A stretch of DNA of 20,447 bases from a virus: IMG/VR virus record IMGVR_UViG_3300010883_000667, positions 1 through 20,447 of that record; one strand, given 5' to 3'. Each line of letters starts with the position of its first letter. Position 1 is the first letter of the stretch. This document shows positions 1 through 16,641 of this stretch, one piece after another. The translations under genes and the position numbers were made by a program. Under the pieces are notes generated by a model. It was not told where the DNA came from. It searched no databases and worked only from the letters and a program-made list of their open reading frames with translations.

Positions 1-114
1 AATCAAAACAGACTCAGCGCTGAGCGTGACACGTCGCGCGCCGCCATTTTGCCCACCGTGCCGAACACAAACGCGCCCGTTCGATAGGTTGTGGTGCACG
101 TAGTCTAGGCTCAT
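1..114 (-). CDS. Partial leftward gene, unknown, cut by window edge
   Basis: An open frame of 38 codons starts at an ATG whose last bases overlap the TGA stop of the gene at 111-356 (ATGA overlap) and runs without a stop to the left edge. The start reads MSLDYVHHNLSNGRVCV. The overlap suggests translational coupling with the upstream gene; no strong Shine-Dalgarno (SD) sequence is seen in front of it. The visible part has no motif I recognise, and the rest of the protein lies outside the window. A chance open frame of this length is possible, but the precise ATGA junction, common among the neighbours, favours a real gene. Confidence 0.5.
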   Translation of the reverse strand, partial: MSLDYVHHNLSNGRVCVRHGGQNGGARRVTLSAESVLI

Positions 115-356
115 GAGGGCATATTCCACTCGTTCCACGCTTCGGCGATTACCTTCGCTGCTTCAAACTTTCCCGCGAGTCCTAGATACTCGCGAAGTGA
201 CAACCCCGTTTTCGGGTTGCCCATATGCCCCTGAACGTGAACCTCAAAACCGTCGAATTCGCCTCCATTCCGATATTCACAAAGCGTATACGTCGCGCGT
301 CCATTGTGGGCTGTCCAAAAGGTGTCTAGTCCGCTCTCGTTGTACGTCCATTTCAT
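111..356 (-). CDS. Hypothetical protein, 81 aa
   Basis: I chose the ATG at 356 (MKWTYNESGLDTFW) over an upstream in-frame start at 410 because AGGAG lies about 9 nt before it. The protein is small, aromatic-rich and probably soluble: an N-terminal half that looks like beta strands (FWTAHNGRATYTLCEY, then FDGFEVHVQG) and a C-terminal helix (AGKFEAAKVIAEAWNEW). There is no signal peptide or membrane segment. I do not recognise the family. It is the third gene of a leftward group downstream of two DNA-binding-like proteins and is coupled by ATGA overlap to the partial gene at the left edge. A role as a phage accessory or early protein is inference from position only. Confidence 0.6.
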   Translation of the reverse strand: MKWTYNESGLDTFWTAHNGRATYTLCEYRNGGEFDGFEVHVQGHMGNPKTGLSLREYLGLAGKFEAAKVIAEAWNEWNMPS

Positions 357-364
357 CGGTGTTG

Positions 365-384
365 CTCCTATGGGGCGTCGCCCC
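365..384 (-). promoter_or_regulatory. SD with adjacent GC hairpin upstream of the 81-aa gene
   Basis: Reading leftward, a perfect 5-bp stem (GGGGC, loop GAC, GCCCC; 384-372) ends two bases before the AGGAG ribosome-binding site at 369-365. The hairpin could modulate access to the site or protect the messenger 5' end; this is inference from structure only. Confidence 0.3.
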
Positions 385-497
385 GTTTCGTTGTGACCGT
401 TCATTGTCACGCGATGCAGCGTAATGGAATATCGGCACCTCGCAATAGGACTATAGAATGCAGTGTTCTAACGCTACTGAGCGCCCCTAGAGTCGCA

Positions 498-809
498 TTA
501 TTCCGCCTGGGCCATCCCAGCTCGTTTTGAAAAAGCCACTTTTGATCGCTTAGCAACATAGACGCGCCGCTCCCATAGAAGACCCTTTGAAGGGCGCTGA
601 GCGAGCACCGGATATAGTTCAGCAAGGGCGCAGCCCAGAGCCATAGACACCTTCAACAGCGTACCCATTTGCATCTTGAGAATGTAGCCGTCGTCCCGGC
701 ACATTTTATCAATCGTAGGAAGCGAGACTCTAGAACGGTAGGCGACGTCCATTCTACTTAAGCTCGCTCGCTGCATGAGCCTCACCAGCGGCGCGTCTTT
801 ACTCCTCAA
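498..809 (-). CDS. XRE/Cro-like helix-turn-helix DNA-binding protein
   Basis: The central part (LVRLMQRASLSRMDVAYRS, then VSLPTIDKMC and LLKVSMALGCALAELYPVL) follows the XRE pattern: helix 1, 'LSRMDVA', 'VSLPTI' as recognition helix, then the 'L..VSMALG..L.ELYP' closing helices. A basic C-terminal tail follows. The open frame extends to a GTG at 860, but I prefer the TTG at 809, giving 103 aa: it has an AGGGGAG site 4-6 nt upstream and overlaps the previous gene's stop by only 11 nt. Likely role: transcriptional control of phage genes, perhaps together with the ribbon-helix-helix-like protein just upstream. Whether it is a repressor or an activator cannot be told from sequence. Confidence 0.6.
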   Translation of the reverse strand: MRSKDAPLVRLMQRASLSRMDVAYRSRVSLPTIDKMCRDDGYILKMQMGTLLKVSMALGCALAELYPVLAQRPSKGLLWERRVYVAKRSKVAFSKRAGMAQAE

Positions 810-1098
810 GGCGTCTCCCCTGATTCCGTACCTTCCGCTGCGCCGACAAGAGACGAACACTAGCCATCACCTCAACCGGGAAGATAGAAGCGCTCAGGCT
901 TGAACCCCGTGCCGATGCTAGCTCGGTGGCAATCATGGCAAACGCTGCAGTGGATAGGGGTACGCCCCATGCCTCTGCAATGCTCTGCAAGTCCGCCTTG
1001 TCTCCCGGTGTCATCATGACGCGGACAACCTCACTGCGCCGAAGCTCAGCAGGTATAGGCACCCTGCCATAGGTCATCTCGTTAGGTCCTCGCTTCAC
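799..1098 (-). CDS. Ribbon-helix-helix-like (CopG/MobC type) protein
   Basis: The segment SEVVRVMMTPGDKADLQSIA followed by WGVPLSTAAFAMIATELA fits the ribbon-helix-helix pattern: a short strand with alternating hydrophobic residues, helix A ('TPGDKADLQSIAEAWG'), then helix B after 'VPLS'. It is therefore a candidate DNA-binding regulator acting as a dimer; the C-terminal basic helix could add DNA contacts. The start is GTG at 1098 with GGGAG about 10 nt upstream; an ATG seven codons in (1077) is an alternative with GAGG upstream. It is the first gene of the leftward group at the left end and directly precedes the XRE-like gene with a short overlap, so the two are probably co-transcribed. The gene-free region to its right would hold its promoter. 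Confidence 0.55.
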   Translation of the reverse strand: MKRGPNEMTYGRVPIPAELRRSEVVRVMMTPGDKADLQSIAEAWGVPLSTAAFAMIATELASARGSSLSASIFPVEVMASVRLLSAQRKVRNQGRRLEE

Positions 1099-1189
1099 TG
1101 TGGTTACTCCCTCTGGATTGATAGGGGTTGAGAGTAGGGTAAGAGATAGGACGGGGCATAGTAGAGGTGTTCAAGTGTCTGTTTTTGTT

Positions 1190-1203
1190 GAGCGAATTCG
1201 CTC
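1190..1203. repeat. Perfect 14-bp palindrome, operator candidate
   Basis: GAGCGAATTCGCTC is a perfect dyad about 90 bp upstream of the ribbon-helix-helix gene start. No T-run flanks it in a terminator arrangement on either strand, so a protein-binding site is the more natural reading. Binding by one of the two neighbouring regulators is inference. Confidence 0.4.
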
Positions 1204-1319
1204 GAGGTTTAGCAGCGCGCCGCCTTCGAAGTGACCTATGGTCCCGGAATGTCGGGAAAGAAGGACCTACTAGTCGGCGTGAGCTTCGCTAGAGGCTGAG
1301 CGCGAACTGAGGCGGACTA

Positions 1320-1506
1320 GGGTCCCGCTATGATAGTGGCCGGAGGGGGGGGGCACCCCCCTTTTGGGTCCCATCGAGCTCCGGGTCCTTGCGTAATTTG
1401 TATGCCTTCATCTAAGCAGACAACTTTTCAGGTTCCCTACCCCCACACTAAAAATCAAGTGATTGAGGGGTCCAAGTCCACCGGAAGTGTCTTCGTAGAG
1501 GGTCCC
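1320..1506. repeat. Cluster of GGGTCC words (iteron- or operator-like)
   Basis: GGGTCC occurs on the + strand at 1320, 1366, 1383, 1468 and 1500, three of them as GGGTCCC, with a related GGTCCC at 1240. Spacing is irregular (46, 17, 85 and 32 bp). Elsewhere in the window the word appears only sparsely and inside genes. The cluster may be a protein-binding array, or simply reflect the G/C-tract composition of this region. Confidence 0.35.
1345..1365 (+). terminator. G-tract/C-tract hairpin followed by T4
   Basis: Nine G residues (1345-1353) are followed after CA by six C residues (1356-1361) and TTTT (1362-1365). On a rightward transcript this is a short but very GC-rich hairpin with a U tail, the form of a weak intrinsic terminator. 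No rightward gene ends here within the window. Confidence 0.35.
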
Positions 1507-1537
1507 ATTACGGTGTTGTTGTTTCACATGGAACACA

Positions 1538-1597
1538 GGGGGGAGGTCATTCGGCGTTCGGAACCGGATTGACATGACCTCGACCCCCGGTGTTTTT
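1538..1597 (+). terminator. Long bulged stem-loop with T5 tail
   Basis: GGGGG at 1538-1542 pairs with CCCCC at 1584-1588, and GAGGTCA at 1543-1549 with TGACCTC at 1575-1581. This gives a 12-bp stem interrupted by a two-base bulge (1582-1583), with a 25-nt loop. GGTG and five T residues (1593-1597) follow. It could be a rightward terminator or part of a folded RNA. A TTGACA hexamer sits inside the structure at 1569-1574 but has no good -10 partner. Confidence 0.4.
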
Positions 1598-1800
1598 CCG
1601 TAAGTCGTTAATCGGTAGCAGGGCGAGGATTCCCCTGCCTTCAATAAGGAGTTGTGTTTTTGTTTAGCACTGGCCGGATACTTGTTTTGTTCTCGATCGA
1701 CTCGCTTTGACCCAAGGTAGTCATCCCCTGGTCCGATGGGCTATGCGAGTTCGTGCACCGGTTCTGACCCGTCAGTTTCGGCAATCCCAACGGACTGCTG

Positions 1801-1849
1801 TGGGAAACGGGTGGGCGTGCTGCCTTTCGGGCACTCCCCGGTGGTCCCA
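1801..1849 (+). other. Compound stem-loop, structured RNA candidate
   Basis: TGGGA (1801-1805) can pair with TCCCA (1845-1849). Inside that, GGG/CCC (1813-1815 with 1836-1838) and GTGC/GCAC (1817-1820 with 1831-1834) flank a single C/T mismatch and close a 10-nt loop. The nested pairing suggests a folded transcript between the hairpins to the left and the small HNH-like gene to the right. It matches no RNA family that I recognise. Confidence 0.3.
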
Positions 1850-2002
1850 GCGCTTGATTGCTCTCCTGCTGGGCGGGCATCAATCCGACTTGACGATCCC
1901 GATCGTGTTTCGTTGAACATATTTATTTTCTACCGAAGTTCGAACTGGTTGCCAACATCCCTTCTTTCCCCCACCCTTACAGGCAACTCACAGGGGAGAG
2001 CC

Positions 2003-2224
2003 ATGCCTAGAGATTACAAGAAGGAATACGCTGAATATCACGCCAAGGCGGGTCCGAAGAAAGATCGCGCGAGTCGCAATGCAGCTCGGGCCAAGGTCAA
2101 GAAAGCCAAGGGTAGTGCTGCGGTGAAGGGCAAGGATGTTGATCACAAGGATTCGAATCCTCGTAACAACAGCGGCAAGAATCTCAGGATTCAGACGAAG
2201 GCGAAGAATCGCTCGAGGAAGTAG
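2003..2224 (+). CDS. Small HNH-like phage protein, 73 aa
   Basis: A strong AGGGGAG site precedes the ATG (MPRDYKKEYAEYHAK). The N-terminal half is a highly basic helix (KKDRASRNAARAKVKKAK). The C-terminal half carries DVDHKDSNPRNNSGKNLRIQ, which resembles the core of HNH nucleases: H in 'DVDH', then N and 'NLR', then 'K.NRS'. Proteins of this size and pattern are common in phages and often labelled HNH-like. It is much shorter than a full HNH endonuclease and lacks cysteine zinc knuckles, so nuclease activity is uncertain; binding nucleic acid through the basic helix is plausible. It is the only rightward gene left of the divergent promoter, and its last 41 bases are antisense to the next gene. 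Confidence 0.7.
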   Translation: MPRDYKKEYAEYHAKAGPKKDRASRNAARAKVKKAKGSAAVKGKDVDHKDSNPRNNSGKNLRIQTKAKNRSRK

Positions 2225-2405
2225 GGGTTTCGGGTTCCCGCTTCATGCGTAGTTGCTGCTCTAGCTCATAGCGTCGGCTCAGCCACCACCGCACCTTTTT
2301 GATCCGTTCTATTTTATCGGCTACTTCACGGCATTTTGAGCAGAGTTGACTGTCTTCGTCATCCCGGTCTTCGTCGCACGCATCGCAACTAAGTTCAAAT
2401 CTCAC
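2184..2405 (-). CDS. Small CxxC-motif protein with Ser-rich tail
   Basis: The GTG start at 2405 has GAGG about 10 nt upstream. Two cysteine pairs (CDAC near residue 7 and CSKC near residue 22) are spaced like a zinc-binding knuckle, followed by a basic, tryptophan-containing helix (IERIKKVRWWLSRRYELE) and a Ser/Pro/Glu-rich tail. The fold could be a tiny zinc-ribbon protein binding nucleic acid or protein. Its final 14 codons are encoded opposite the end of the rightward HNH-like gene, so the tail composition may be shaped by that overlap. It is the last gene of the long leftward group. I do not recognise a family. Confidence 0.5.
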   Translation of the reverse strand: MRFELSCDACDEDRDDEDSQLCSKCREVADKIERIKKVRWWLSRRYELEQQLRMKREPETPTSSSDSSPSSES

Positions 2406-2418
2406 GCTGAATGCCTCA

Positions 2419-2628
2419 TTACCTGAAGAACCAGGCGAGTGCCGATGCGAAAAACCCTATGATGGAAAGTGCCGTTCGGCTCTGCACTTTTTGCTTCTGA
2501 AGTTCCAAGGCCACTTGGCCGAGCTCCTCGTCCATTCCGTCTACGATCTGGCGCAGGTTTCTCAGCTTATGGTCAAGTTCTTTGACCAAGGCCAGGGTTT
2601 TCCCCCACTCGACGTCGCTTGGACTCAA
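2419..2628 (-). CDS. Coiled-coil plus C-terminal membrane segment, holin-like
   Basis: A TTG start at 2628 is preceded by GGTGGG. Residues 8-50 form an amphipathic heptad-like helix (TLALVKELDHKLRNLRQIV and on), and the last ~18 residues (ALSIIGFFASALAWFFR) are a single membrane segment ending in a positive residue. Small one-helix proteins with an N-terminal coiled coil occur among phage holin- and spanin-associated proteins, but also among unrelated phage membrane proteins. The endolysin is 4 kb away on the other strand, so the usual holin-endolysin neighbourhood does not support the call. Membrane anchoring is well supported; lysis function is a guess. Confidence 0.55.
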   Translation of the reverse strand: MSPSDVEWGKTLALVKELDHKLRNLRQIVDGMDEELGQVALELQKQKVQSRTALSIIGFFASALAWFFR

Positions 2629-2713
2629 TTAACCCACCATTCCCCGGCCCGGATTGTCATAAGGTGGTTCACCAAACCGCCATCGACCACAGCGGCTTGG
2701 CTAACCGACTTAT

Positions 2714-2728
2714 GCCGGAACATCCGGC
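2714..2728 (-). other. Stem-loop just after a stop codon
   Basis: GCCGGA, loop TGT, TCCGGC (leftward reading) is a perfect 6-bp hairpin starting within a few bases of the stop of the gene at 2730-3005. No U-run follows, so it may stabilise the transcript end or mark processing rather than terminate transcription. Confidence 0.35.
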
Positions 2729-2729
2729 G

Positions 2730-3005
2730 TTAAGGCGATTCTAGCCTATCTTCAGCGCAGGAAAGGGCAGACGCAAGTTGCTTTTCCGCCTCTTGCTTGA
2801 ACTTTTTCGGATTTGCTCCGTCCCACCAATGAACCCGCAATGGAAGCGCATCGATATAGCCGCGCAGCATCTTGATCTGCCTGTTGATGATATCGTTTGG
2901 TGCCAAATCACGATCCCGGTTCTTGGCTGATCGGCCACTTCCCAAGGCGCGAATGAAATTCAGCTCCGATTGGGTCGATTGTCCGTTATCTGCATGAGGT
3001 CTCAC
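2730..3005 (-). CDS. Hypothetical protein, 91 aa
   Basis: The GTG start overlaps the upstream gene's TGA (GTGA) and has AAGGGGA 5 nt upstream. The protein is soluble and charged. A likely helical C-terminal half (PKKFKQEAEKQLASALSCAE) follows a tryptophan pair (RVHWWDGAN). No signal peptide, membrane segment or recognisable catalytic motif is seen. It belongs to a tight run of four small leftward genes (2730-3878) that share short overlaps and are probably co-translated. The function is unknown. Confidence 0.55.
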   Translation of the reverse strand: MRPHADNGQSTQSELNFIRALGSGRSAKNRDRDLAPNDIINRQIKMLRGYIDALPLRVHWWDGANPKKFKQEAEKQLASALSCAEDRLESP

Positions 3006-3298
3006 GTTTTCCCCTTTGAATCTTTCATTGCCGCGTCGATTGCCTCTCGAAAGCTATTCATTCGCCGGTTCTCGCGGCCTACGTAATACCAGTAGCCTTC
3101 GAAATGGTCGATCATCGAAGGGTGGTTCTCAAGCCAGTTCAATCTGCGGTGATCTCGTTCTTTACGCTTCATGCGGTCAAACTGCGTAGTGGCAAGAACC
3201 TGAAGGTCAAGTTTGTCCTTCTCGAGCGCCTCAATTCGGCGACTCATGACCTCAACCACTTCTACCATCTTCAACTCATCCCTCAGTAACTTGGTCAC
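3002..3298 (-). CDS. Coiled-coil protein with RLNWLE...AIDAAM pattern, 98 aa
   Basis: The open frame extends to 3346, but I prefer the GTG at 3298: it overlaps the upstream stop (GTGA) and has GAGGAAG 4 nt before it. An N-terminal coiled coil (about residues 5-50) leads to RLNWLENHP, an aromatic segment (HFEGYWYYVG) and a C-terminal helix FREAIDAAM. The combination of 'RL.WLE' and 'FR.AIDAAM' recurs in small phage proteins of unknown function. It may be an oligomeric accessory protein; no enzymatic motif is visible. Confidence 0.6.
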   Translation of the reverse strand: MTKLLRDELKMVEVVEVMSRRIEALEKDKLDLQVLATTQFDRMKRKERDHRRLNWLENHPSMIDHFEGYWYYVGRENRRMNSFREAIDAAMKDSKGKT

Positions 3299-3573
3299 GC
3301 ATCTTCCTCGATTTCGGACATAATCTCGTCGATCCTGATCATACAATCCCTGAAGGATGCCGCACTTCCACAGCGAGGATCATCTGGGCCATCGTAATCG
3401 GGGTGCACAAAGTCAAAGTCATTGCTCCGCGACGGGATCGGCTTTACATCTACTGAGATCGTCCAGCCTTTGTATTCAGTAATTCCTTCTAGTTTGAACT
3501 GGCACTTTGCGCAATATATGAGTGGTTGAATTGCGCCACAGGAGCGGCAGAACTTGTCGAATACGCTGGGCAT
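3295..3573 (-). CDS. Hypothetical protein with N-terminal CxxC pairs, 92 aa
   Basis: Residues 9-24 hold two cysteine pairs (CRSC and CAKC), a probable zinc knuckle, followed by a beta-rich segment (YKGWTISVDVKPIPS) with several Asp/Pro turns (DYDGPDDPRC) and a short helix with RIDEIMSEIEED. The ATG overlaps the stop of the preceding gene by one base (TGATG). 'GWTISVD..PIP' followed by a short C-terminal helix is a pattern I associate with small phage proteins, but no function is attached to it. It may bind nucleic acid or a protein partner. Confidence 0.55.
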   Translation of the reverse strand: MPSVFDKFCRSCGAIQPLIYCAKCQFKLEGITEYKGWTISVDVKPIPSRSNDFDFVHPDYDGPDDPRCGSAASFRDCMIRIDEIMSEIEEDA

Positions 3574-3878
3574 CAGTGCTTCCTTGAACCTTCGTTGTCT
3601 TCCAGTTTACGAAAATCGCGTAGATCGGAGGAATCTGAAAACTCCACCGAGGTTGCGGTGAACTCACCATATCCATCTGGTGTAAACGTAGAGATCTTCT
3701 TCGACTCGTAGACGGTAACGCGAATCTGGATGTCATCCTCAAGGGCTTGCTTGATCGCGTTGTCGATGGTCGTTTTGCGCATCGTGAAAAGGGTGAGTCC
3801 CCACTCTTCCAGCGTTTCATTCCAGTATGTGTACGCAAACACGTCTTTGCCGCTCTTTGGCTTCTTGTCCTGCTTCAT
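3573..3878 (-). CDS. Hypothetical protein, 101 aa
   Basis: The open frame runs up to 4034, but the ATG at 3878 (MKQDKKPKSGKDVFAYTYW) is a better start, with GGGGGA about 4 nt upstream; the upstream extension would read through the hairpins in the intergenic space. The protein looks alpha/beta: strands FAYTYWNET and LTLFTM, helix TTIDNAIKQALEDD, strands IQIRVTVYES, then a charged C-terminus. No known motif. It is the first of the four small overlapping genes and follows a possible terminator. Confidence 0.55.
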   Translation of the reverse strand: MKQDKKPKSGKDVFAYTYWNETLEEWGLTLFTMRKTTIDNAIKQALEDDIQIRVTVYESKKISTFTPDGYGEFTATSVEFSDSSDLRDFRKLEDNEGSRKH

Positions 3879-3915
3879 TATTCCCCCGGCCCCGGTGTGA
3901 GTGCCCGCCACGGGC

Positions 3916-3940
3916 AAAAAAAACAAAATCCCGTAGCGGG
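3916..3940 (-). terminator. Weak intrinsic terminator after the PP-loop gene
   Basis: Leftward, CCCG CTA CGGG (3940-3930) is followed by ATTTTGTTTTTTTTG (3929-3915), a short GC stem with a long U tract. A second hairpin (GCCCG/CGGGC, 3903-3915) follows the T-tract and a GGCCGAA/TTCGGTC hairpin (3944-3960) precedes it. The stem is only 4 bp, so termination may be partial; it would lower expression of the four small genes downstream. Confidence 0.45.
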
Positions 3941-3969
3941 TGTGACCGAAACATTCGGCCACTCTCTCC

Positions 3970-4860
3970 CTATACCCCGCACATCCCTTCACATTCGTTG
4001 CCGAACATGTCGATCTGGTTGGGATCGTCAACATTGAATTCCACCTCGTCGAGTGGCTTGAGACTTCGGTGAAGAAACGCCTCTTCGTTCACGCCGCGCA
4101 GTTTGCCAGTGCGGATTGCTTTATCGAATGTGACTGCGCGCGACCACTCTGAGGGGTGGTTTTTTCGCATGTCGTCCCAGGTTCGGTCGTCATGAAACGG
4201 ACAAAACGTACACGCGCTTTTCTGCGGAACTGGGAAGTTTTCACGAGTGAACCAATCGATAATTTCCCCACGTCGCATGGGCTTGTCGAACACAAGGGGC
4301 CATCGGTTCGTGATCCAAGTATTCGGGTTCGGTTTCATCCTCTGTACTTCGTCGAGCGAGATGCCAATCCACTGCTCAACCTTGAATTTCCCCTTTGCTC
4401 GTTGACGAGGCTTTAGGCCCAGTAGTTCGCGGACCTTCTTCTCGATTGGTGCAATTTTGTACTCTCGGGTGCACTGGCGGCGCAGCATAGAATCTCGACC
4501 ATCCGAACCCTGAACACGCAGCGGAAGAGAAGCGAATCGACTTCGCCCATCGCGAGATTTCAAGACGTCGTTTTCTAGCGATCCCGCGGTGACGCGATGG
4601 ATTTTGATGTGCTTGATTTCGCTCTCAAGCCAAGACAAATGCTCGTATACCCAAGGCGGTTCCGATTGCGTGTCGGCGAATATTGCGTGTTCTGGCACGT
4701 CTCCGAAGTCGCCACGGTCTGCCATCAAAATCATCGCAGAACTCTGCACGCCAGCACCCAAGGAAAGGCATCGCATATCGAATTCTTCGTTTCCTTCGTC
4801 CGTCCGTTCAAGTGCCCGATATTCGTTGTTTTCTTCATCCGGCGTCTCTTGTCGCATCAC
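3970..4860 (-). CDS. PP-loop ATPase, PAPS-reductase family, phage type
   Basis: The PP-loop nucleotide-binding motif is SLGAGVQSS (residues 33-41), followed by the 'IFADTQSEPPWVYEHLSWL' segment typical of phage-encoded phosphoadenosine-phosphosulfate-reductase-family proteins. Later motifs are QCTREYKI (C130), WIGISLDEVQRMKP and CTFCPFHD (C217, C220). The family activates a substrate with ATP; true PAPS reductases reduce sulfate, DndC relatives act in DNA phosphorothioation, and other PP-loop enzymes thiolate RNA. No other sulfur-assimilation gene is present. The GTGATG start region overlaps the winged-helix gene's stop; an internal ATG at 4776 would remove an acidic 28-residue leader. Lying in one leftward run with a winged-helix protein and a DNA methyltransferase, it may act on nucleic acid. 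The family is clear; the substrate is unknown. Confidence 0.8.
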   Translation of the reverse strand: MMRQETPDEENNEYRALERTDEGNEEFDMRCLSLGAGVQSSAMILMADRGDFGDVPEHAIFADTQSEPPWVYEHLSWLESEIKHIKIHRVTAGSLENDVLKSRDGRSRFASLPLRVQGSDGRDSMLRRQCTREYKIAPIEKKVRELLGLKPRQRAKGKFKVEQWIGISLDEVQRMKPNPNTWITNRWPLVFDKPMRRGEIIDWFTRENFPVPQKSACTFCPFHDDRTWDDMRKNHPSEWSRAVTFDKAIRTGKLRGVNEEAFLHRSLKPLDEVEFNVDDPNQIDMFGNECEGMCGV

Positions 4861-5174
4861 AAATCACCCCCATCCAGTATGAAGGGTCTCGTGACGCGAT
4901 ATTCCCACGTCCCCTTCTGTTCAACTCGTCGCCGTCGATCGACTTCGTAGGCACCAAACTTGTTTTTACGGAAGTCGCGGAACCTTGCGGAGATCGAAGC
5001 CTCTGGGAATCCAAGCGCATCGGACACCTCTCGCAATGTGAGCCACTTCGCACCTCTGTTGATTTCCGCGATCCGGAGCATGAACTGAAGCACGCGCTCT
5101 CGTTGCGGTAAAATTCTGGAATCGTCGATAGGACGTTCATATGCAGGTGAATTGATGGGACCAGGCTTGATCAC
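4857..5174 (-). CDS. Winged-helix DNA-binding protein, 105 aa
   Basis: The GTG at 5174 overlaps the methyltransferase stop (GTGA) and has GGGAGG 8 nt upstream; an open extension to 5285 lies wholly inside the methyltransferase gene and is rejected. The core is a helix (RERVLQFMLRIAEIN), then WLTLREVSDALGFPEASISAR (helix-turn-helix with 'EASISARFRDFRK' as recognition helix), then a wing with strands YEVDRRRRV and WEYRVTR. This matches a common phage winged-helix type with 'ASISARLRDLRK' followed by a beta hairpin. It probably binds DNA as a regulator or as a partner of the neighbouring modification enzymes. It is sandwiched between the C5-methyltransferase and PP-loop genes with 4-nt overlaps, so translation of all three is likely coupled. 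Confidence 0.7.
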   Translation of the reverse strand: MIKPGPINSPAYERPIDDSRILPQRERVLQFMLRIAEINRGAKWLTLREVSDALGFPEASISARFRDFRKNKFGAYEVDRRRRVEQKGTWEYRVTRPFILDGGDL

Positions 5175-6079
5175 GCCATTGCCTCCCTGATTGCGGTCGC
5201 CATTGCGCGGCCCATTCCAACGGGCACCGCGTTCCCCACGATCTTCCTGCGGGCTGCCATCGTGAATGGAGAGTGCTTGAACCAACCTTCCGGTATCCCC
5301 TGCAATTCCATCATTTCCTCAAGGGTACGTCGCTGAATCTGACCTACCCATCCCTCACCGCGGATCTTCGTGGTTCGCATCTCGTTAGAATGGTGTCTGC
5401 CAGTCACAACTGCCTGCTTCTCGCGATGCTCGCGGTATTCCTTGCTGCCCAACTGATTGATATGTCCGTCGTTACCACCTACCGCGGTTTGCTTCGTTCT
5501 GGAAGCCGACACCTTAACCTTCCCGCTGCCACCAATCGCAACTGGCACCAATCGCGCATCGCTACTCACGGTCTGCTGCGCGTGGGGGAGTTCGAACAAC
5601 GCAAAATTGATGAACTTGCGGAGCTCCGGGGCCGCACCATCGCGCACGCCAAACCAGAACTTCCGAGATCGCATCTGCTCGTAGCCCCAACCCGTGCCAT
5701 CGTCGAGCGTCGAGTTGTCGAGCATGAACGACTTCACGTCGTAACCAGCGGGTTTAACATCAGGTGCCTTTGGGACGTTTTCGCGAAGGAACCAGGCGGG
5801 TTGGCATTCGTTTACTACGCGCTCGTACTCTCCAGTCAGATCCGGAAACGTCGGTTCCAGACCTTTTGCGCGCACAAGATTTGCAAGTGCTGAGTGTGAT
5901 TGACAGGGGTCCCCTCCGATGATTCCATCGAAGCGACCAGCGGGAGGGTGGAACGTCCCTACGTCACCCCCCCAGATCGGATCGGGACCCCTGACAACCA
6001 CAAAACCTTCTAGGTCAAACGCGTAATCCAGAACTCCCCCTCCCGGAAAGAGTGAGAGGACGAGCGAGCTATTCGACAT
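5171..6079 (-). CDS. DNA (cytosine-5)-methyltransferase
   Basis: Motifs of the C5-cytosine methyltransferase family appear in order: motif I LSLFPGGGVLDYAF (residues 8-21, SAM binding), motif IV GGDPCQSHS with nucleophile C59, motif VI RENV (99-102), motif VIII QMRSR (135-139), a QRRTLEEMMELQGIP segment like motif IX, and motif X GNAVP (282-286). At 302 aa it is compact, with a modest target-recognition region between motifs VIII and IX. The usual 'GGPPCQ' is GGDPCQ here. It would transfer methyl from SAM to cytosine C5 in a specific duplex site, probably protecting phage DNA or altering expression. No restriction nuclease is adjacent. The ATG has AGGGA about 8 nt upstream and overlaps the previous gene by 11 nt. 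Confidence 0.9.
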   Translation of the reverse strand: MSNSSLVLSLFPGGGVLDYAFDLEGFVVVRGPDPIWGGDVGTFHPPAGRFDGIIGGDPCQSHSALANLVRAKGLEPTFPDLTGEYERVVNECQPAWFLRENVPKAPDVKPAGYDVKSFMLDNSTLDDGTGWGYEQMRSRKFWFGVRDGAAPELRKFINFALFELPHAQQTVSSDARLVPVAIGGSGKVKVSASRTKQTAVGGNDGHINQLGSKEYREHREKQAVVTGRHHSNEMRTTKIRGEGWVGQIQRRTLEEMMELQGIPEGWFKHSPFTMAARRKIVGNAVPVGMGRAMATAIREAMA

Positions 6080-6275
6080 GTAAAATCCCTGCGGTCGCGT
6101 CCCTGATCTCGTTGATGACGGAAAGATCCGGGTCCTCGTACCGCTTGTTATGGAAATAGAACGTAGGGTCCGAGAGAATGTCGAGTCGCGCTTTGGCTCG
6201 TCGGTCTTCCAGAAGCATGTCGCGTGTACTCTGCCTCTTTACCTTCCGAATCAATGCGTTAGTCGCCTCGGTCAA
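6069..6275 (-). CDS. Hypothetical protein, 68 aa
   Basis: A TTG start overlaps the stop of the preceding gene (TTGA) and has GGAG about 9-10 nt upstream. The protein is helical and basic in its first half (ALIRKVKRQSTRDMLLEDRR), then has an aromatic turn (PTFYFHNKRYEDPD) and a closing helix. No membrane segment or catalytic motif is seen. Its place between an RHH-like protein and the methyltransferase suggests an early accessory or regulatory role, but I do not recognise it. Confidence 0.5.
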   Translation of the reverse strand: MTEATNALIRKVKRQSTRDMLLEDRRAKARLDILSDPTFYFHNKRYEDPDLSVINEIRDATAGILHVE

Positions 6276-6475
6276 GAGGCTGACTCCGTTCGCTGGTACT
6301 TTTCCGCGATTTCTTCGGGGATCTTGATGCCCATCGTTTTGACCTTCTCATCGGTCCACTCGTGCATCACCAATTCAGTGATCTTACCGATAGGAATGTC
6401 CAGAATTACGCAAACTGCTCGCAGCCTCCGGTGAACTCGCTTCGGGATCTGAATTGCTGTCATTTCTTCAGGCAT
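6272..6475 (-). CDS. RHH-like DNA-binding candidate, 67 aa
   Basis: The ATG at 6475 has TAGGAGC 5 nt upstream and is the first gene of the leftward group, right beside the divergent control region. Residues 5-40 (TAIQIPKRVHRRLRAVCVIL, then DIPIGKITELVMHEW) fit a strand plus two helices as in ribbon-helix-helix regulators: 'I.IP..VH.RL.......IPI..I...V...'. A charged C-terminal extension follows. It could autoregulate the divergent promoters or act as an early transcription switch; that role is inferred from fold and position. Antitoxin-like proteins have similar folds, but no toxin gene is adjacent. Confidence 0.55.
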   Translation of the reverse strand: MPEEMTAIQIPKRVHRRLRAVCVILDIPIGKITELVMHEWTDEKVKTMGIKIPEEIAEKYQRTESAS

Positions 6476-6521
6476 GTTGCTCCTAATGTGTGGGAAACCA
6501 AGGGTTTAGACGACAAACCGC

Positions 6522-6579
6522 TTGCCCCTACGCGTCTCTACATGTAGGGTATGCCATCGTTACATGCAAGAACTATAGT
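6522..6579 (+). promoter_or_regulatory. Divergent control region: rightward promoter candidates and palindrome
   Basis: The 129-bp gap separates leftward and rightward genes. Candidate one is TTGCCC (6522-6527), 17 bp, TAGGGT (6545-6550). Candidate two is a good -10, TATAGT (6574-6579), with no clear -35. A perfect 10-bp palindrome CTACATGTAG (6538-6547) lies in the spacer of candidate one, and CCCTAC/GTAGGG (6526-6531 with 6544-6549) forms a wider inverted repeat, so an operator over the promoter is plausible. The late operon starts at 6605 with AAGGAGC before its GTG. Confidence 0.4.
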
Positions 6580-6604
6580 CCACTAAAGCGACAAGGAGCT
6601 AAAA

Positions 6605-6847
6605 GTGCCAGTTATTCACAACCTTCGCAGCGTCATTCTCTATCACTCCAAGCGAGTGCGTCCCGACACCCTCCGGCGGATCAAGGAAGCGATCGACTCT
6701 GGCGATAATGCGCAGATGATCGAAGTCGATCCATCCGAGATGGACTGCTTTACGCAGATGATCTTTTTTGAGCCCCAGATTCAGGACGCGATCGACGACA
6801 AGGACGGTAAGCCCCGCAAGAAGGGTCGCGAGAAAATTGGAGCATGA
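6605..6847 (+). CDS. Hypothetical protein, first gene of the late operon
   Basis: The GTG at 6605 follows a strong AAGGAGC site and the divergent control region. The 80-aa protein begins with a beta-rich stretch (PVIHNLRSVILYHS), then a helix with SKRVRPDTLRRIKEAIDSG, an acidic aromatic segment and a Lys/Arg-rich tail (KPRKKGREKIG). No motif is recognised. It overlaps the endolysin by ATGA, so the two are probably translated together. As leader gene of the packaging/lysis operon it might be a lysis accessory or a late regulator; neither is shown by the sequence, and no membrane segment is present. Confidence 0.6.
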   Translation: MPVIHNLRSVILYHSKRVRPDTLRRIKEAIDSGDNAQMIEVDPSEMDCFTQMIFFEPQIQDAIDDKDGKPRKKGREKIGA

Positions 6848-7254
6848 ACCGCTTCAGCGCGAAATCGCGATCGAGACTGGATACTTGCGACCCTCGACTC
6901 CAGAAACTTTTCGATAAGGTGCTGCAGGAGTGCGATATCACGATCCTATGCGGCGAGCGAACGATAGAAGAGCAGAACGAAGCGTTTCGAACCGGGCATT
7001 CTAAGGTAAAGTGGCCGGGATCAAATCACAACGTCACCACCCACGAAAAGAAGTCGGGGAAGAAGAGCAGGGCAATCGATATCGCGCCATACCCTATTGA
7101 CTGGTTGAACCGCGACAGATTCATGCACCTCGCTGGAATAGTTATAGGAATCGCTTCAACGATGGACATCAAGATTAGGTGGGGTGGAAACTGGGATGGT
7201 GGGGACCTAGAGCAGCAGAGCTTCGACGATCTTGTGCATTTCGAGCTACGTTGA
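6844..7254 (+). CDS. Endolysin, M15-family peptidase (VanY/L-Ala-D-Glu peptidase type)
   Basis: The 136-aa protein matches small phage M15 endolysins: 'ILCGERTIEEQNEAFRTG' (39-51 region), 'SNHN' with H62, 'RAIDIAPYP' with D79, and C-terminal 'DLVHFEL' with H132. H62, D79 and H132 fit the zinc ligands and D129 the catalytic base position, where a Glu is also common in the family. The enzyme would cleave peptide cross-links or stem peptides of peptidoglycan at lysis. The stretch between the SNHN and RAID motifs is somewhat longer than the short linker I recall in relatives and is Lys-rich. There is no signal peptide, so export needs a holin. It sits in the late operon just before the terminase genes; the next gene starts 4 nt later. 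Confidence 0.85.
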   Translation: MNRFSAKSRSRLDTCDPRLQKLFDKVLQECDITILCGERTIEEQNEAFRTGHSKVKWPGSNHNVTTHEKKSGKKSRAIDIAPYPIDWLNRDRFMHLAGIVIGIASTMDIKIRWGGNWDGGDLEQQSFDDLVHFELR

Positions 7255-7258
7255 TTCC

Positions 7259-7723
7259 ATGCCAGCACGAAAAGATAAACTCGTCACGCAGGACGAAGTG
7301 AACGAGACAATGAAGGAATCTGAGCAACTCGACCTTGCGGCCCTCGCGCGCGAGAAGAGCGAAGACATGCTCGGAGTTCTCGTGTCTGCGGCTAACCGCG
7401 AGAAAAACCCCGACGATCCCGACGACGAATCGGCATCTTGGGCGGTCGCCACGTCTGCGGCGAAGACTGTGATCGAACTCGGTATAGGGAAAACAGCCAC
7501 TCAGGTTCACGAAAAGCAGGAGCAAGGTCTGACAATTGTGATTAACCAACTAACAACTGGCTTGACCACTGAAAAGGTGATTGAAGGCAGTGACTTGGGG
7601 GCTGGAATCGCGAAAACGATCGAGATTACTGGTGCTGAAGTTAATCTGGCTCAAGATCTTGTTGAAATTGTTCCGGTTCTGAGTAAGCCTTCAAAAAACC
7701 AAGATGCAGGGAGTTCATCATGA
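7259..7723 (+). CDS. Terminase small subunit candidate
   Basis: I use the ATG at 7259 (MPARKDKLVTQDEVNETMK), 4 nt after the endolysin stop; the SD is weak (GAG), so coupling to the previous gene is likely. The 154-aa protein has a helical N-terminal half (QLDLAALAREKSEDMLGVLV), an acidic loop (NPDDPDDES) and a second helix (AVATSAAKTVIELGIG) followed by a strand (GLTIVINQL), the arrangement found in many phage small terminases. Position two genes before TerL supports this. It would recognise phage DNA and regulate the large subunit. No clear helix-turn-helix motif is visible, so the call rests mostly on position and helical pattern. Confidence 0.5.
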   Translation: MPARKDKLVTQDEVNETMKESEQLDLAALAREKSEDMLGVLVSAANREKNPDDPDDESASWAVATSAAKTVIELGIGKTATQVHEKQEQGLTIVINQLTTGLTTEKVIEGSDLGAGIAKTIEITGAEVNLAQDLVEIVPVLSKPSKNQDAGSSS

Positions 7724-7950
7724 AACGAATTACATCGCAGTCGAAGTCGCGTCGTCCGGGTGGTGGTGGCAAGGCCATCGATACTCCGTCCATAGGGAAT
7801 GAAGGATCTTTGTCCGGTATGGATCAGCTTACTGGTGGTCCCGAAGGTGGCGCGGGCGAACGTGGAACCAAACCGTACGACTTTGACGGTTCGTACGCGG
7901 GCAACGTAAGGGGCTGCTGCTCTAAACCTGTAAGTCTGGGGGTCAAATGA
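7720..7950 (+). CDS. Hypothetical Gly-rich protein, 76 aa
   Basis: ATGA overlap with the previous gene, with AGGGAG 6 nt upstream. The N-terminus is basic and Ser/Gly-rich (SQSKSRRPGGGGK), followed by GGPEGGAGERG and PYDFDGSYAGNV. It looks mostly disordered, with two adjacent cysteines near the end (RGCCSKP). Small disordered proteins between terminase subunits are common in phage late operons; function is unknown. Translational coupling on both sides (ATGA again at 7947) suggests a real gene. Confidence 0.5.
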   Translation: MKRITSQSKSRRPGGGGKAIDTPSIGNEGSLSGMDQLTGGPEGGAGERGTKPYDFDGSYAGNVRGCCSKPVSLGVK

Positions 7951-8138
7951 AGCATCATCACGACACAAAGAACCAAGAAGGATCAGGCGACTTCCGCGAG
8001 ACACCGATCAGCAAGCCATTGGAAAAACCGGCGAGGCAATACACGTCGAATGAATCCGTTCCTGCTGATCCTTTCTGCGAAGAACCCGTCGATCAGAACT
8101 TCGAAAACCCCGGCGACCTGTCAAAACGGTTCATGTAG
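7947..8138 (+). CDS. Hypothetical protein, 63 aa, in frame with TerL across an amber stop
   Basis: The ATG overlaps the previous stop (ATGA) and has GGGGGT upstream. The sequence is hydrophilic and Pro/Glu-rich (MKHHHDTKNQEGSGDF; VDQNFENPGDLSKRFM), with no motif, probably disordered. It ends with TAG (8136-8138), after which only three codons separate it from the TerL ATG in the same frame. Rare readthrough would give an N-terminally extended terminase; this is a structural possibility only. Confidence 0.5.
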   Translation: MKHHHDTKNQEGSGDFRETPISKPLEKPARQYTSNESVPADPFCEEPVDQNFENPGDLSKRFM

Positions 8139-8147
8139 AATAAAATT

Positions 8148-9455
8148 ATGGGGAAGGTTTCCGTCCCGTACAACTGGAGTCCTCGGGTATATCAAGAACC
8201 GCTATGGGCTGCACTTGAAGGTGGAATAAAGCGTGCCGTTCAAGTCTGGCATCGTCGTACGGGGAAAGATCTCACCGACATAAACTGGACTGCTACTCAG
8301 GCGTTTCAACGTCGCGGTCTCTACTGGCACATGTTCCCGACGTACTCTCAGGGCCGAAAGGTAATCTGGGAAGGACTCGACAACTCGGGACGACCGTTTC
8401 TCGACGCGTTCCCCCCCCGAACGTGGAAGCGGAAACTCGACGCCGAGATGACTCTTTGGCTCGAGGGTGGGTCGATCTTTCAGGTTGTTGGAACAGACCA
8501 CATCGATCGTCTCATGGGCGCGAACCCGGTTGGAGTCATCGTTTCGGAATATGCCTTGCAGAACCCCGCAGCGTGGGAACTCATATCCCCTATTCTCGCT
8601 GCGAACGATGGCTGGGCACTTTTCCCCTATACCCCTCGCGGTCGCAATCACGGCTACGACCTGTACCGCTACGCGATGGATCATCCCGAAACTTGGTACG
8701 CTGAAATCCTCACCGCGGATGATACTCAGATCATCGACCCAGCGATGCTCGCAGAAGAGAAAGAGCGGATGCCGCGCGAGATTTTCGAGCAGGAATACTA
8801 CTGCTCGTTCGAAGCATCTCTCGTCGGCGCGTACTATAAAGACCAACTAGCGTGGATGGGAGAGCAGGACCCGCTACGGATCTCCGATCGCGTGCAGTGG
8901 ATGCCGGACAAAGAGGTGATCACCGGATGGGATCTTGGACACTTCGACTCCACTGCGATCTGGTTCGCTCAGGTTGTCGGTTCTGAAATCCGGTTCATCG
9001 ACTACTACGAGAACGCGGGTGAGCCGATCGATCATTACGTGAAATATCTGCGCACGCTCCCGTACACGTACGGTGATGCCTTTCTCCCGCACGATGCTTC
9101 GCAGACCCTTCTCCAGACGGGCAGAAGCACGTTCGAAATTATGCGCAGTCTCGGCGTTAGAACGGTCCAAAACCCGAAAGTAGCACTATCAGACCAGCAT
9201 GAGACGGTGCGTTTAATGTTGCGGCAGGCGTGGGTTCACGAGACGAAATGTAAGCGCGGCCTGCAAGCGCTCCGCGAGTATTCAAAACAGACGATTCAGG
9301 GCGAGCGCGGACCAGGCGGCGAGCTCTTGTACCGGGACAAGCCTCTTCATAATTGGGCATCCCACGGTGCGTCAGCGATGGCGACAATCATGTTTGGGTT
9401 TAGACCAGAGAGGTCCGGTGAGTTCAAGCAACCGGATGCGAGTTTTGTCGTATGA
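8148..9455 (+). CDS. Terminase large subunit (TerL)
   Basis: The 435-aa packaging motor protein. The N-terminal ATPase has Walker A HRRTGKDL (35-42) and a Walker B-like VGVIVSE (128-134), with the catalytic Glu at 134; 'SEYALQNP' follows as in many phage TerL proteins. The C-terminal RNase H-like nuclease starts at TGWDLGHFDSTAIWF (D262), with an acidic HDAS later. The usual third-acid motif near the end reads SHGASA (S409) where Asp is common. It docks on the portal, translocates DNA into the prohead and cuts concatemers. No SD is seen before the ATG; translation may be coupled to the upstream 63-aa gene, which lies in the same frame. The C-terminus overlaps the next gene by ATGA. Confidence 0.92.
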   Translation: MGKVSVPYNWSPRVYQEPLWAALEGGIKRAVQVWHRRTGKDLTDINWTATQAFQRRGLYWHMFPTYSQGRKVIWEGLDNSGRPFLDAFPPRTWKRKLDAEMTLWLEGGSIFQVVGTDHIDRLMGANPVGVIVSEYALQNPAAWELISPILAANDGWALFPYTPRGRNHGYDLYRYAMDHPETWYAEILTADDTQIIDPAMLAEEKERMPREIFEQEYYCSFEASLVGAYYKDQLAWMGEQDPLRISDRVQWMPDKEVITGWDLGHFDSTAIWFAQVVGSEIRFIDYYENAGEPIDHYVKYLRTLPYTYGDAFLPHDASQTLLQTGRSTFEIMRSLGVRTVQNPKVALSDQHETVRLMLRQAWVHETKCKRGLQALREYSKQTIQGERGPGGELLYRDKPLHNWASHGASAMATIMFGFRPERSGEFKQPDASFVV

Positions 9456-9679
9456 GTCCTGAGAGCATCAAAAACAATAGAGACGCAATCCTTGCCGTGC
9501 GATTCCTTTTAGAAGATCGCGAGACGATGCTGAATACGATCGACGATTTCGAGCGAAGATTAAAACTCCGAGAACGCAAAGAGAGCGCTCTTGTAACTCG
9601 ATCAAAACCGAAACCGCCACCGTTCCCTGATGTTCTGCGGGAATATGGTCATGTGCCGAAAGAGGAGAGAGTAGCGTGA
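9452..9679 (+). CDS. Hypothetical protein between TerL and portal, 75 aa
   Basis: ATGA overlap with TerL at the start and GTGA overlap with the portal gene at the end, so it is translationally coupled on both sides. A helical charged N-terminal two thirds (LAVRFLLEDRETMLNTI, then DDFERRLKLRERKES) is followed by a Pro-rich segment (KPKPPPFPDVLREYG). No enzymatic motif or membrane segment. It could assist packaging or portal assembly; function is unknown and inferred only from position. Confidence 0.6.
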   Translation: MSPESIKNNRDAILAVRFLLEDRETMLNTIDDFERRLKLRERKESALVTRSKPKPPPFPDVLREYGHVPKEERVA

Positions 9680-11802
9680 GTATGGACCCCGGAAGCAACT
9701 ACCGAGACCCGGAAGCAGACGATACTGGGTACGCAGAGCCCACTCGTCATCCCGCGCACGAGCTCGACGTTAATGAGATCAAGGCGATTATTCAGCGTGA
9801 GATCGAAGACTCGCTCGGCGGACTAGGCTCAAAAGTCAGTGAAGAGCGACGAGTCGCGATCCGAATGTACTACGGGCGACCCCTCGGAAACGAGATAAAA
9901 GATCGCTCTCAAGTGATCATGATGGACGTGCTGGAAGTCGTCGAATGGACGATGCCCTCGCTTATGCGAATGTTCACGGGTGGGGCCGAGGTGGTTCGCT
10001 TCTCAGCAACCAGGCCGGAAGACGTTCACAACGCGGAACTTGCGTCTCGATACATCAACCACATCTTCATGAACAAGATGAATGGGTTCCAGATATTCTA
10101 CGACTGGTTCAAGACCGCTCTTCTTGAAAAAAATGGCATCGTGAAGGTCTATTTCAAGGAAGAAAGGAAGCCAGTTGTTTCCTCGTACACAGGACTTACC
10201 GAAGACGAAGTGATAACGCTGCTCGACAACGACGGGGCAGAACCACTTTCGAACGACTCGTACGAGAAAGACATCCCCGGTGTTGGGAAGGTCACATGCT
10301 ACGACCTGACGATGCGCGAGTGGAAGACCACGCGCACGCCTGCGGTCGATGGGATCGCGCCGGAAGAGTGGATGATTGCTCGACGCACGATCACGCTGGA
10401 CGATGACTCCCCGTTCACCGCGCAACGCAAGAAAATGAGCGTTTCCGAACTCGTTTCGCAGGGGCTCGACTTCGATGAACTCGCCAACCTCCCAAGTGAT
10501 GACTCTCCTGAATACAGTCAGGGAAGAACTGAACGACTTTCCGAAGACGAGACTTACCCGGTAAACACTGCGGAACGCTCTGACGTTGCATCGCGAGAAC
10601 TATGGGTAACGGACTGCTATATCAAACTTGATGAAGATGGTGATGGCTATGCAGAACTACGACGCATCCTCGTGTCCGGTGAGCAGTCTATCCATATCCT
10701 CATTGACGAAGAGATAAATCAGAATCCTTTCTGCTCAATCACGCCAATACCGATGCCGCATAAGTTCTTCGGGATGTCACTCGCTGACTTGGTGTCTGAC
10801 CTTCAGCAGATCCGATCGGCAATTCTTCGGCAGATCATGGATCACATCTACCTTTCGACGAATCCCCGGTTGGCGGTTCTTGAAGGACAGGTGGAGTTGG
10901 ATGATCTGCTCACAGTTCGCCCAGGTGGTCTGGTACGCCAGCGCACCCTCGGCGCAATCGAGCCGATCATACTGCCTCCGCTCCCGCGCGAGGCTTTCGA
11001 AGCGTTGACGTATTTGGAGGAGGTGCGAGCTAACCGAACGGGCATAATGGCCCACGGTCGGGAACTCGATGCGTCTGCCATAAACTCCACAGCTACGGGT
11101 CTCGCGCAACTTATGGCAGAGAAGCAGCAGAAGATCGAGCTGATCGCGCGAATCTTTGCGAACACAGGCATCAAAGATCTATTCCGGAAACTGCTACGAG
11201 AGACCGTTGAGAACGCGACGAAGGAAGAGCAGATGGAGATCAACGGGGAGTGGGTCACGTTCGACCCTCGCGAGTGGGATGCCGACATGCACCTTAATGT
11301 CGAGGTCGGTCTGGGGGCCGGACAGGCGATCGAACGTCTCAGCAACCTCTCGCAGATAGAAGAGACGCAGGGAACCCACGTCGGCGCACTTGGCTTTGGA
11401 GTCACCGTAACGCCGAAACACGCGTACAACCTTGCGATCCGGAAGGCAGAAGCCGCCGGTTTCAGGAACCCCGAGCTTTTCTTCCAAGACCCGGATACGG
11501 TGGAACCGCCGCCCCCGGAGCCCAGCGAAGAGCAGATCAAGATGCAGTTCGAAACGCTGAAGCTCGAGCAGGAAATGGACATGAGATCTAACTCGATGGA
11601 GTTGGAAGCGCGACGTGATTCAGAGATAGTTAGGCACAGGGCAGAAGAACTGGCGAGCAAAGAACGTGTCGAGATGGCACGAATCGAGATGGAAGAACGG
11701 GTGAGGCTCGGTCAGCAAGAAGCTACGATCGAGGCTGCCCAAATCAACGCTTCCGGTCGAAACGAAAAAGGAGAAAGTGATGAGCAAGCAACTGGCGAGT
11801 AA
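9676..11802 (+). CDS. Portal protein (large podovirus type)
   Basis: A GTG start with AGGAG 9 nt upstream gives 708 aa, in the range of large podoviral portals. The core pattern 'MDVLEVVEWTMPSLMRMFTG', then 'EVVRFSATRPED', 'ASRYINHIFM' and 'FYDWFKTALLEKNGIVKVYF' is the characteristic portal N-terminal region. Near the middle, 'GMSLADLVSDLQQIRSAILRQ' and 'YLSTNPRLAVLEGQVELDDLL' correspond to the stem/channel part. The last ~130 residues are a charged helical barrel-like extension (EEQIKMQFETLKLEQEMDMR and on). The dodecameric portal would sit at one vertex, start head assembly and conduct DNA. Its gene lies in canonical order between TerL and scaffold. Confidence 0.9.
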   Translation: MSMDPGSNYRDPEADDTGYAEPTRHPAHELDVNEIKAIIQREIEDSLGGLGSKVSEERRVAIRMYYGRPLGNEIKDRSQVIMMDVLEVVEWTMPSLMRMFTGGAEVVRFSATRPEDVHNAELASRYINHIFMNKMNGFQIFYDWFKTALLEKNGIVKVYFKEERKPVVSSYTGLTEDEVITLLDNDGAEPLSNDSYEKDIPGVGKVTCYDLTMREWKTTRTPAVDGIAPEEWMIARRTITLDDDSPFTAQRKKMSVSELVSQGLDFDELANLPSDDSPEYSQGRTERLSEDETYPVNTAERSDVASRELWVTDCYIKLDEDGDGYAELRRILVSGEQSIHILIDEEINQNPFCSITPIPMPHKFFGMSLADLVSDLQQIRSAILRQIMDHIYLSTNPRLAVLEGQVELDDLLTVRPGGLVRQRTLGAIEPIILPPLPREAFEALTYLEEVRANRTGIMAHGRELDASAINSTATGLAQLMAEKQQKIELIARIFANTGIKDLFRKLLRETVENATKEEQMEINGEWVTFDPREWDADMHLNVEVGLGAGQAIERLSNLSQIEETQGTHVGALGFGVTVTPKHAYNLAIRKAEAAGFRNPELFFQDPDTVEPPPPEPSEEQIKMQFETLKLEQEMDMRSNSMELEARRDSEIVRHRAEELASKERVEMARIEMEERVRLGQQEATIEAAQINASGRNEKGESDEQATGE

Positions 11803-11968
11803 GGTCATGGAAATTCTGGACGGTCGAAGCGGCGACAAGCAGTATCGGCTTAATGCCATCCGAGAGTTGTGCGCGGGTGAGATTTCCAAGAAGGACGTCA
11901 AAAAACCCGGTGTTGTCAAGCGGGTCAAGGAGGCTGTCTCCGGAAACGCTGATAGCAACGCCGACTGA
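11780..11968 (+). CDS. Hypothetical basic protein, 62 aa
   Basis: AAGGAG lies 6-7 nt before the ATG at 11780; a GTG directly in front is an alternative. The gene begins inside the last codons of the portal gene. It is a short helical basic protein (LASKVMEILDGRSGDKQYRL, then KKDVKKPGVVKRVKEAVSG). No recognised domain. Position between portal and scaffold is typical for small virion-assembly proteins, but a function cannot be assigned. Confidence 0.55.
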   Translation: MSKQLASKVMEILDGRSGDKQYRLNAIRELCAGEISKKDVKKPGVVKRVKEAVSGNADSNAD

Positions 11969-12270: not shown

Positions 12271-12299
12271 ATACCTAATCGGCTTAGGGGAGGCGTTTG

Positions 12300-14437: not shown

Positions 14438-14448
14438 GCCTCAAACTG

Positions 14449-14477: not shown

Positions 14478-14498
14478 TACCCTTACGGGGGGAGTCAC

Positions 14499-14870: not shown

Positions 14871-14871
14871 A

Positions 14872-15225: not shown

Positions 15226-15227
15226 AC

Positions 15228-15863: not shown

Positions 15864-15864
15864 A

Positions 15865-16640: not shown

Positions 16641-16641
16641 T

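Follow-up and report, generated by a model that had tools for sequence, protein, structure and literature searches.

A conserved DNA element in the gene-free gap of a tailed-phage genome as a possible terminase-cut junction

A gene-free gap of 0.9 kb (1099-2002) in the window, i.e., the whole 20,447-bp stretch analysed, a linear virus record of a class that often represents fragments, contains a DNA element at ~1317-1445 that is conserved among phages with a related terminase (six sites, leave-one-out searches). There is roughly an even chance (~0.5) that this element is a terminase-cut genome junction, either cos-like or another fixed terminus. By sequence comparison, the conserved feature of the gap is DNA and not a hairpin. 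The initial annotation had described a hairpin-rich region and offered a functional RNA, a multi-terminator block, an origin or a packaging site as its function. This interpretation is supported in part: the packaging option fits best, on account of 1317-1445 as conserved DNA and not of hairpin density, whilst the functional RNA is unsupported.

The identity as a tailed phage is evident from the large terminase (TerL), the portal, a scaffold protein (12297-13403) and an SU10-type capsid protein (13403-14437), and the relatives of the portal suggest a podovirus-like phage. The order is leftward genes (111-1098), the gap, a short HNH gene pointing right, a group of leftward accessory genes (a phosphoadenosine-phosphosulfate-reductase-like gene and a cytosine methylase among them) and finally the rightward structural genes. 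The genes relevant here are as follows.

498-860, minus strand: Cro/C1-type HTH protein (Pfam HTH_26, 22.3 bits, cut-off 22)
799-1098, minus strand: small protein, ribbon-helix-helix-like by eye, kept near the element in relatives
2003-2224, plus strand: small HNH protein of 73 aa (Pfam HNH_3, 30.4 bits, cut-off 24.8)
7232-7723, plus strand: small-terminase candidate, by position alone, with homologues upstream of TerL in L251 and L082
8148-9455, plus strand: TerL (phrog_2, E 4.3e-17)
9676-11802: portal, distant relative (35%) of the portal of Pseudomonas phage tf

The 799-1098 protein had no match in Pfam or PHROG; its model, of low confidence (pLDDT 67.8), shows two adjacent helices in the manner of ribbon-helix-helix proteins. 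The 2003-2224 protein scores above the HNH profile cut-off, and its best PHROG is 4590, of unknown function. No counterpart of its gene was found in the 12 other clade contigs searched at E 1, which leaves the window phage alone among them in carrying it. The small-terminase candidate had no match in Pfam. A close cultured member of the clade was not found, the best TerL among cultured or assembled phages matching at 43%. The leftward accessory block (2184-6475) separates the element from the structural genes, and most of its members are unmatched in L082-L086 or L251.

That the gap lacks genes, as the initial annotation had stated, is confirmed by codon scores. The eight gap ORFs scored ranged from -0.143 to -0.001 per codon, as compared with 0.070 to 0.185 for 12 clear genes and -0.012 to 0.217 for 14 other called genes. 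The antisense null was -0.119 (SD 0.097), and the best gap ORFs lie ~1 SD higher. Thus, the gap ORFs look non-coding, although this excess formally allows a tiny gene. The neighbourhood is indeed packed, many adjoining genes overlapping or abutting upon inspection of the ORF list. For 800-2300, no DNA homologue was found in the phage collection (BLAST, low-complexity filter on). The right part of the gap, 1446-2002, had no significant relative among 360 loci, and a 34-nt match to 1588-1621 in L201/L204 (82%, E 0.03) was taken as chance. This part is probably phage-specific and contains at most one rightward terminator. The sequence TGTTTTTGTTKAGC occurs twice in the window, at 1180-1193 and 1655-1668, 475 bp apart, which may be chance.

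The conserved element consists of a C-run, 1-2 nt, a second C-run, T3-4, GGGNCCC and then usually an AT-rich stretch. Its parts in and around the window copy are listed below.

1240-1505: GGWCC cluster (sites at 1240, 1263, 1321, 1367, 1384, 1469 and 1501), candidate protein-binding repeats
1317-1445: conserved DNA block common to the window and L082, its run-plus-palindrome part also in L251, L084-L086, L256, L257 and L258
1320-1326: left GGGTCCC, 18 bp before the run
1345-1361: G9-CA-C6 run, in relatives C7-9, 1-2 nt, C6-8
1366-1372: right GGGTCCC, candidate cut region, GGGNCCC in 6/6 sites
1394-1403: AT-rich 10-mer, 25-34 bp right of the palindrome centre, candidate small-terminase contact
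1424-1437: CTTTTCAGGTTCCC, L082 counterpart CTTTTCAGGGTCCC

The double run, T3-4 and GGGNCCC are present in all six sites. The two-fold symmetric GGGNCCC, kept in each of them, is a candidate for the cut. The AT-rich 10-mer has 6-8 A/T out of 10 in L251, L082, L256 and L257, and is weak in L086 (5/10). The left palindrome is found in three of the six sites, i.e., the window, L082 (also at 18 bp) and L086 (as GGGGCCC at 17 bp); L251 has just GGTCCC, and L256 and L257 have none. Between the window and L082, the collinear blocks are CTAGGGTCCC, the homopolymer run with CCCCCC and TTT, GGGWCCC, and CTTTTCAGG.TCCC; the strict pattern of the latter block matched a single contig, that of L082. With two further sites, at 1730 and 1843, GGWCC occurs nine times in 1099-2002 versus 1.06 expected (P 1.9e-6, in a test chosen post hoc). 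In the window run (1345-1361), G9 stands in the place of C7-9 with flanks collinear with L082, reflecting either a strand swap or an assembly or amplification artefact.

Relatives were collected via the terminase. A single-sequence TerL search yielded five contigs, and alignment searches added, amongst others, L251 (80%) and L252-L264 (about 56-60%). Both small genes on the left flank of the gap are matched in L082, L084-L086 and L251 and, in part, in L257; in L256, a match exists to the regulator. With a profile of two sequences (window and L082), L251 was detected at E 0.0018 and L256, weakly, at E 2.5; both sites are near the regulator gene. The site in L257 was recognized by reading the same place, that in L258 by a pattern scan, and those in L084-L086 by a C-run scan. 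Matches of a shorter pattern in L248, L249 and L250 were discarded, since the remainder of the element was absent.

Conservation was assessed by leaving out each of six sites (window, L251, L082, L086, L256 and L257) in turn and searching its contig with a profile from the other five. The left-out site was the top match of its own contig in all six cases, with E values of 0.0058 for the window (at 1356-1424), 1.9e-8 for L251, 1.5e-4 for L082, 4.6e-5 for L086, 1.1e-13 for L256 and 2.5e-12 for L257. Elsewhere, no match was better than E 0.47, and reversed-sequence controls reached E 0.99 at best; composition bias accounted for 2-15 bits. L256 and L257 are not independent in this comparison because they are near-identical right of the element. 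In ten cultured or assembled phages, the regions compared, situated upstream of TerL or at the ends of the records, lacked the combination of parts; single runs or single GGGNCCC do occur there. Five of these phages are relatives of the L326 TerL (CRP-901, CRP-902, Pkon1, Jayden and POR1) and five of the window TerL (BUCT708, MW202510, phiAX1, ZCVPP1 and RHph_I3_18); further relatives, e.g., Alteromonas phage ZP6, were left out. Literature searches by topic, not by the letters of the element, showed nothing on it among the papers listed.

The four stem-loops that had drawn attention to the gap are all present. Three of them are as follows, the G9/C6 hairpin being formed by the run described above.

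1538-1597, plus strand: bulged stem followed by T5, plausible rightward intrinsic terminator (z -2.1)
1618-1638, plus strand: GCAGGG/CCCTGC stem-loop without a T run (z -2.1)
1801-1849, plus strand: nested stem, within chance (z -0.9)

Compared with 300 dinucleotide shuffles each, 1340-1368 gave z -3.6 (0% of shuffles as low), 1536-1597 and 1616-1641 each gave z -2.1 (1.7% and 2% equally low, respectively), and 1799-1851 gave z -0.9 (18%); these values are flattering because the stems had been chosen by eye beforehand. For the whole gap, z was -1.09 on the plus strand (3/20 shuffles as low; -1.96 and 2/60 upon repetition) and -4.09 on the minus strand (0/20; -2.19 and 1/60 upon repetition). 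In 120-nt fold windows, the gap means were -0.46 (plus) and -0.60 (minus), and 66/490 and 29/490 blocks of equal size, respectively, fold as low. Terminator-like sites in 1-20000 numbered 21 versus 19.8 +/- 3.8 in shuffles, with one listed site (1345-1360) inside the gap. Thus, of the earlier observation, the gap and the stem-loops stand, whilst a hairpin density beyond chance is weak, with ordinary sliding windows and borderline whole-gap shuffles (z about -2 on either strand).

A functional RNA or a block of terminators is, consequently, very improbable as an explanation of the region. Its assets are the four stem-loops, of which one reaches z -3.6 and another is T5-tailed, and the whole-gap z of about -2. 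However, the sliding-window energies are ordinary, no Rfam family reached its gathering score in the gap, and the 1446-2002 segment has no significant relative among the 360 loci. Moreover, the G9/C6 hairpin is peculiar to the window, because five relatives have C on both sides and cannot form it; as the first run is G in the window and C in the relatives, neither strand keeps one RNA structure. On these grounds the structured-RNA reading was rejected. Of the multi-terminator block, only 1536-1597 is plausible, as a rightward terminator, and no homologue of this stem was found in the 360 loci.

The main rival explanation, itself unlikely, is a control region between leftward early and rightward genes, with promoters and with GGGNCCC operators for the two DNA-binding proteins encoded at 498-1098. 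In the window, L082, L251, L256 and L257, the regulator gene lies 200-270 bp downstream of the start of the run, the GGWCC-type sites are clustered, one of the proteins has an HTH_26 domain, and its partner was modelled, at low confidence, with ribbon-helix-helix-like helices. In L084, L085 and L086, however, the element is retained but sits past both regulator genes, 3' of the pair, so their promoter does not include it as a constant component. Furthermore, no sigma-70-like match was found in the gap at the thresholds applied, and an operator leaves unexplained the mosaic boundary and the contig starts described below. A fixed terminus would fit these two features as well as the L084-L086 placement, whereas an operator fits them poorly.

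The mosaic boundary is seen upon comparison of L256 and L257. Left of the element, they are 55% identical (94/172 aligned columns), and their regulator proteins 49% (43/88). Right of it, identity rises to 96% (101/105), and the first shared gene (98/99) and TerL (426/432) are 99% identical each. The two sides of L258 match those of L257 at 97% and 100%. Such a boundary would be expected if arms were swapped at cohesive ends.

Contig starts also fall at the element. L260 starts at the base homologous to position 601 of L256, 2 bp right of the palindrome centre (0/1000 shuffles align as well), and L254 starts at L256 position 607, 8 bp right of the centre (2/1000). L252 has the L254 sequence with a start 24 nt later, and was counted solely as a copy of L254, its own first bases aligning with L256 no better than chance (438/1000). 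Thus, contigs from two lineages start 1-30 bp right of the palindrome, a count made after seeing the data. With the six-site profile, the L260 start was weak (E 0.087), and those of L254 and L252 were absent among the matches listed. The start of L264, in a C-run, was not counted (128/1000 shuffles as good, and absent among the profile matches listed). Other contigs start further left of the run, at 0.2 to 1.5 kb in L258, L256, the window and L257, at about 5 kb in L082 and L251, and at 4 to 14 kb in L084-L086.

The contig breaks could stem from the C-run itself, which argues against the junction. Long C-runs are hard to sequence, and mosaic joints often lie between genes. The element might be a conserved intergenic boundary prone to recombination or assembly breaks and devoid of a packaging role. 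This explanation seems improbable, since the runs, GGGNCCC and usually the AT-rich stretch have been kept, as opposed to an identity of just 33-43% between the neighbouring regulators and that of the window. Among 157 full contigs, 0/12 C-runs lay within 60 nt of an end versus 0.23 expected, a control that is blind to runs missing because of a break.

A replication origin or primer site, in which the C-run acts as a G-rich strand or transcript, is also rather improbable, if slightly less so than the boundary without a packaging role. The region is gene-free and flanked by divergent genes; an unrelated match, L320, has a TTATCCACA box beside the element at a contig end (about 6377-6455), and T7-like relatives of L012 have a C-run after TerL near promoter-like repeats. 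However, the window run is G9-CA-C6, so the G-rich form of the relatives is kept on neither strand. Cumulative GC skew, which had been proposed as a check for an origin, tracks gene strand and makes no origin-like turn at the gap, so an origin judged by skew was rejected.

Starting from the observed conservation, position and mosaic boundary of the element, we infer how binding, cutting, direction and type of end at a terminase-cut junction might be arranged. Replicated concatemers would hold one element per genome. The small terminase may bind repeats around it, candidates being the clustered GGWCC sites and the rightward AT-rich stretch, and the large terminase would then cut within or beside the symmetric core of GGGNCCC and C-run. 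The right-hand side, with lysis genes, terminase, portal and capsid, would enter the head first. The small HNH nuclease (2003-2224) may help at the junction. Contigs of six lineages (window, L251, L082, L084-L086, L256 and L257/L258) run 0.2 to 14 kb past the element, which speaks against a cos site unless ligated or concatemeric DNA was sequenced. Further evidence against a junction is that the element is not adjacent to the small-terminase candidate (5.9 kb away in the window and 2.0-2.2 kb in L256/L257), that the HNH gene was not found in the 12 clade contigs, and that the element is absent from the parts compared of the ten cultured or assembled phages.

Cos sites usually, though not universally, lie beside terminase genes. 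Lambda-like cos sites, as described in excerpts of PMC4669245, span about 200 bp and consist of cosQ, cosN and cosB. The window element resembles them in being short, with a symmetric core, candidate repeats and about 110 bp conserved; the likeness claimed is one of layout, and the element is far from the terminase genes, unlike lambda cos. In HK97, the cos region has a small-terminase site 15-29 bp from the cut and an A-tract, and the phage has the HNH protein gp74, according to excerpts of PMC11331095 and PMC9410871. The window has an AT-rich stretch 25-34 bp from the palindrome centre and an HNH gene 0.63 kb away; in contrast to HK97, its small-terminase candidate is 5.9 kb off, and the HNH gene is confined to it among the clade contigs searched. 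A distant link to PaP3 lies in the 35% match of the window portal to that of Pseudomonas phage tf, a member of the same wider group as PaP3. The PaP3 cos has a 20-base cohesive end, as given in an excerpt of PMC7672466. In the records of the T7-like phages LUZ100 and ProddE, annotated direct terminal repeats start 13 and 16 nt, respectively, before a C6 run. At six bases, this run is a weak likeness to the element; unlike in these phages, no terminal repeat was seen in the window, a 20-kb linear record.

Genome ends in uncultured phages normally come from reads, not from sequence. In a mycobacteriophage, read coverage drops sharply over a 3' overhang, according to an excerpt of PMC5000459. A recognizable end motif would allow the genomes of the clade to be opened correctly, their packaging type to be predicted and their mosaicism to be explained.

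Element-like sites exist outside the clade. The pattern CCCCNACCCCCCN{0,4}TTTN{0,3}GGGNCCC matched 15 viral stretches and 7 in the genome collection, raw counts without a matched scrambled-pattern control; the pattern read backwards matched 0/13 records. Five of the viral matches belong to the clade, and the other ten form about eight groups (L318 and L324 being alike, as are L320 and L328). A terminase gene lies within 2 kb in four of these groups (L316, L320/L328, L323 and L326), a post hoc count that favours the junction. In L318 and L324, the site is near a contig end. Three observations count against the junction. In L316, the orientation of the element is opposite to that of TerL. At least one site outside the clade, that of L317, at a gene start and ribosome-binding-site-like, is probably chance. 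No terminase was found in the L317, L321 and L322 records by a phrog_2 search, but the same search overlooked those of L316 and L326 too. By eye, an HNH gene ends at the site in the translation of L322, and in L316, as read from the reverse strand, HNH-like sequence lies across the site from the flank on which the site was read.

A looser form of the element occurs in marine phages. The contigs L003, L004, L009, L010 and L012 hold near relatives of the HNH gene and, 2.2 to 3.6 kb from it, two C-runs separated by A or T. In L012 (4005-5888), the HNH relative directly precedes a T7-like TerL, with the run after TerL. In the cultured T7-like phages CRP-227 and CRP-114, a C-run also lies just after TerL, with at least several hundred bases between it and the end of the record. 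Because of this distance, and because the terminal repeats of LUZ100 and ProddE are at another C6, the run after TerL does not mark a demonstrated end.

The C-run with GGGNCCC might be a terminus module that is exchanged among unrelated tailed phages and travels apart from the terminase that cuts it, a doubtful extension of the junction reading. It would span different terminase families (L316, L320/L328, L323 and L326), a Paracoccus prophage-like region (L334) and, in the looser form, the marine T7-like phages. In L334, about 15 kb separates the element from the nearest terminase match, a distance that counts against such a module. If the motif truly spans terminase families, a fixed pairing of cut site and terminase in evolution would be questioned.

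On visual inspection, the end of an L086 gene right of the element (7035-7694) is similar to a dockerin or calcium-binding repeat. L334 (about 2484) and L335 (about 1936) represent two Paracoccus genomes with the element, in which AAT/AAC-type repeats precede it. The L335 element had no match in plasmids (BLAST, low-complexity filter on); by eye, it is located near resolvase-like and reverse-transcriptase-like genes.
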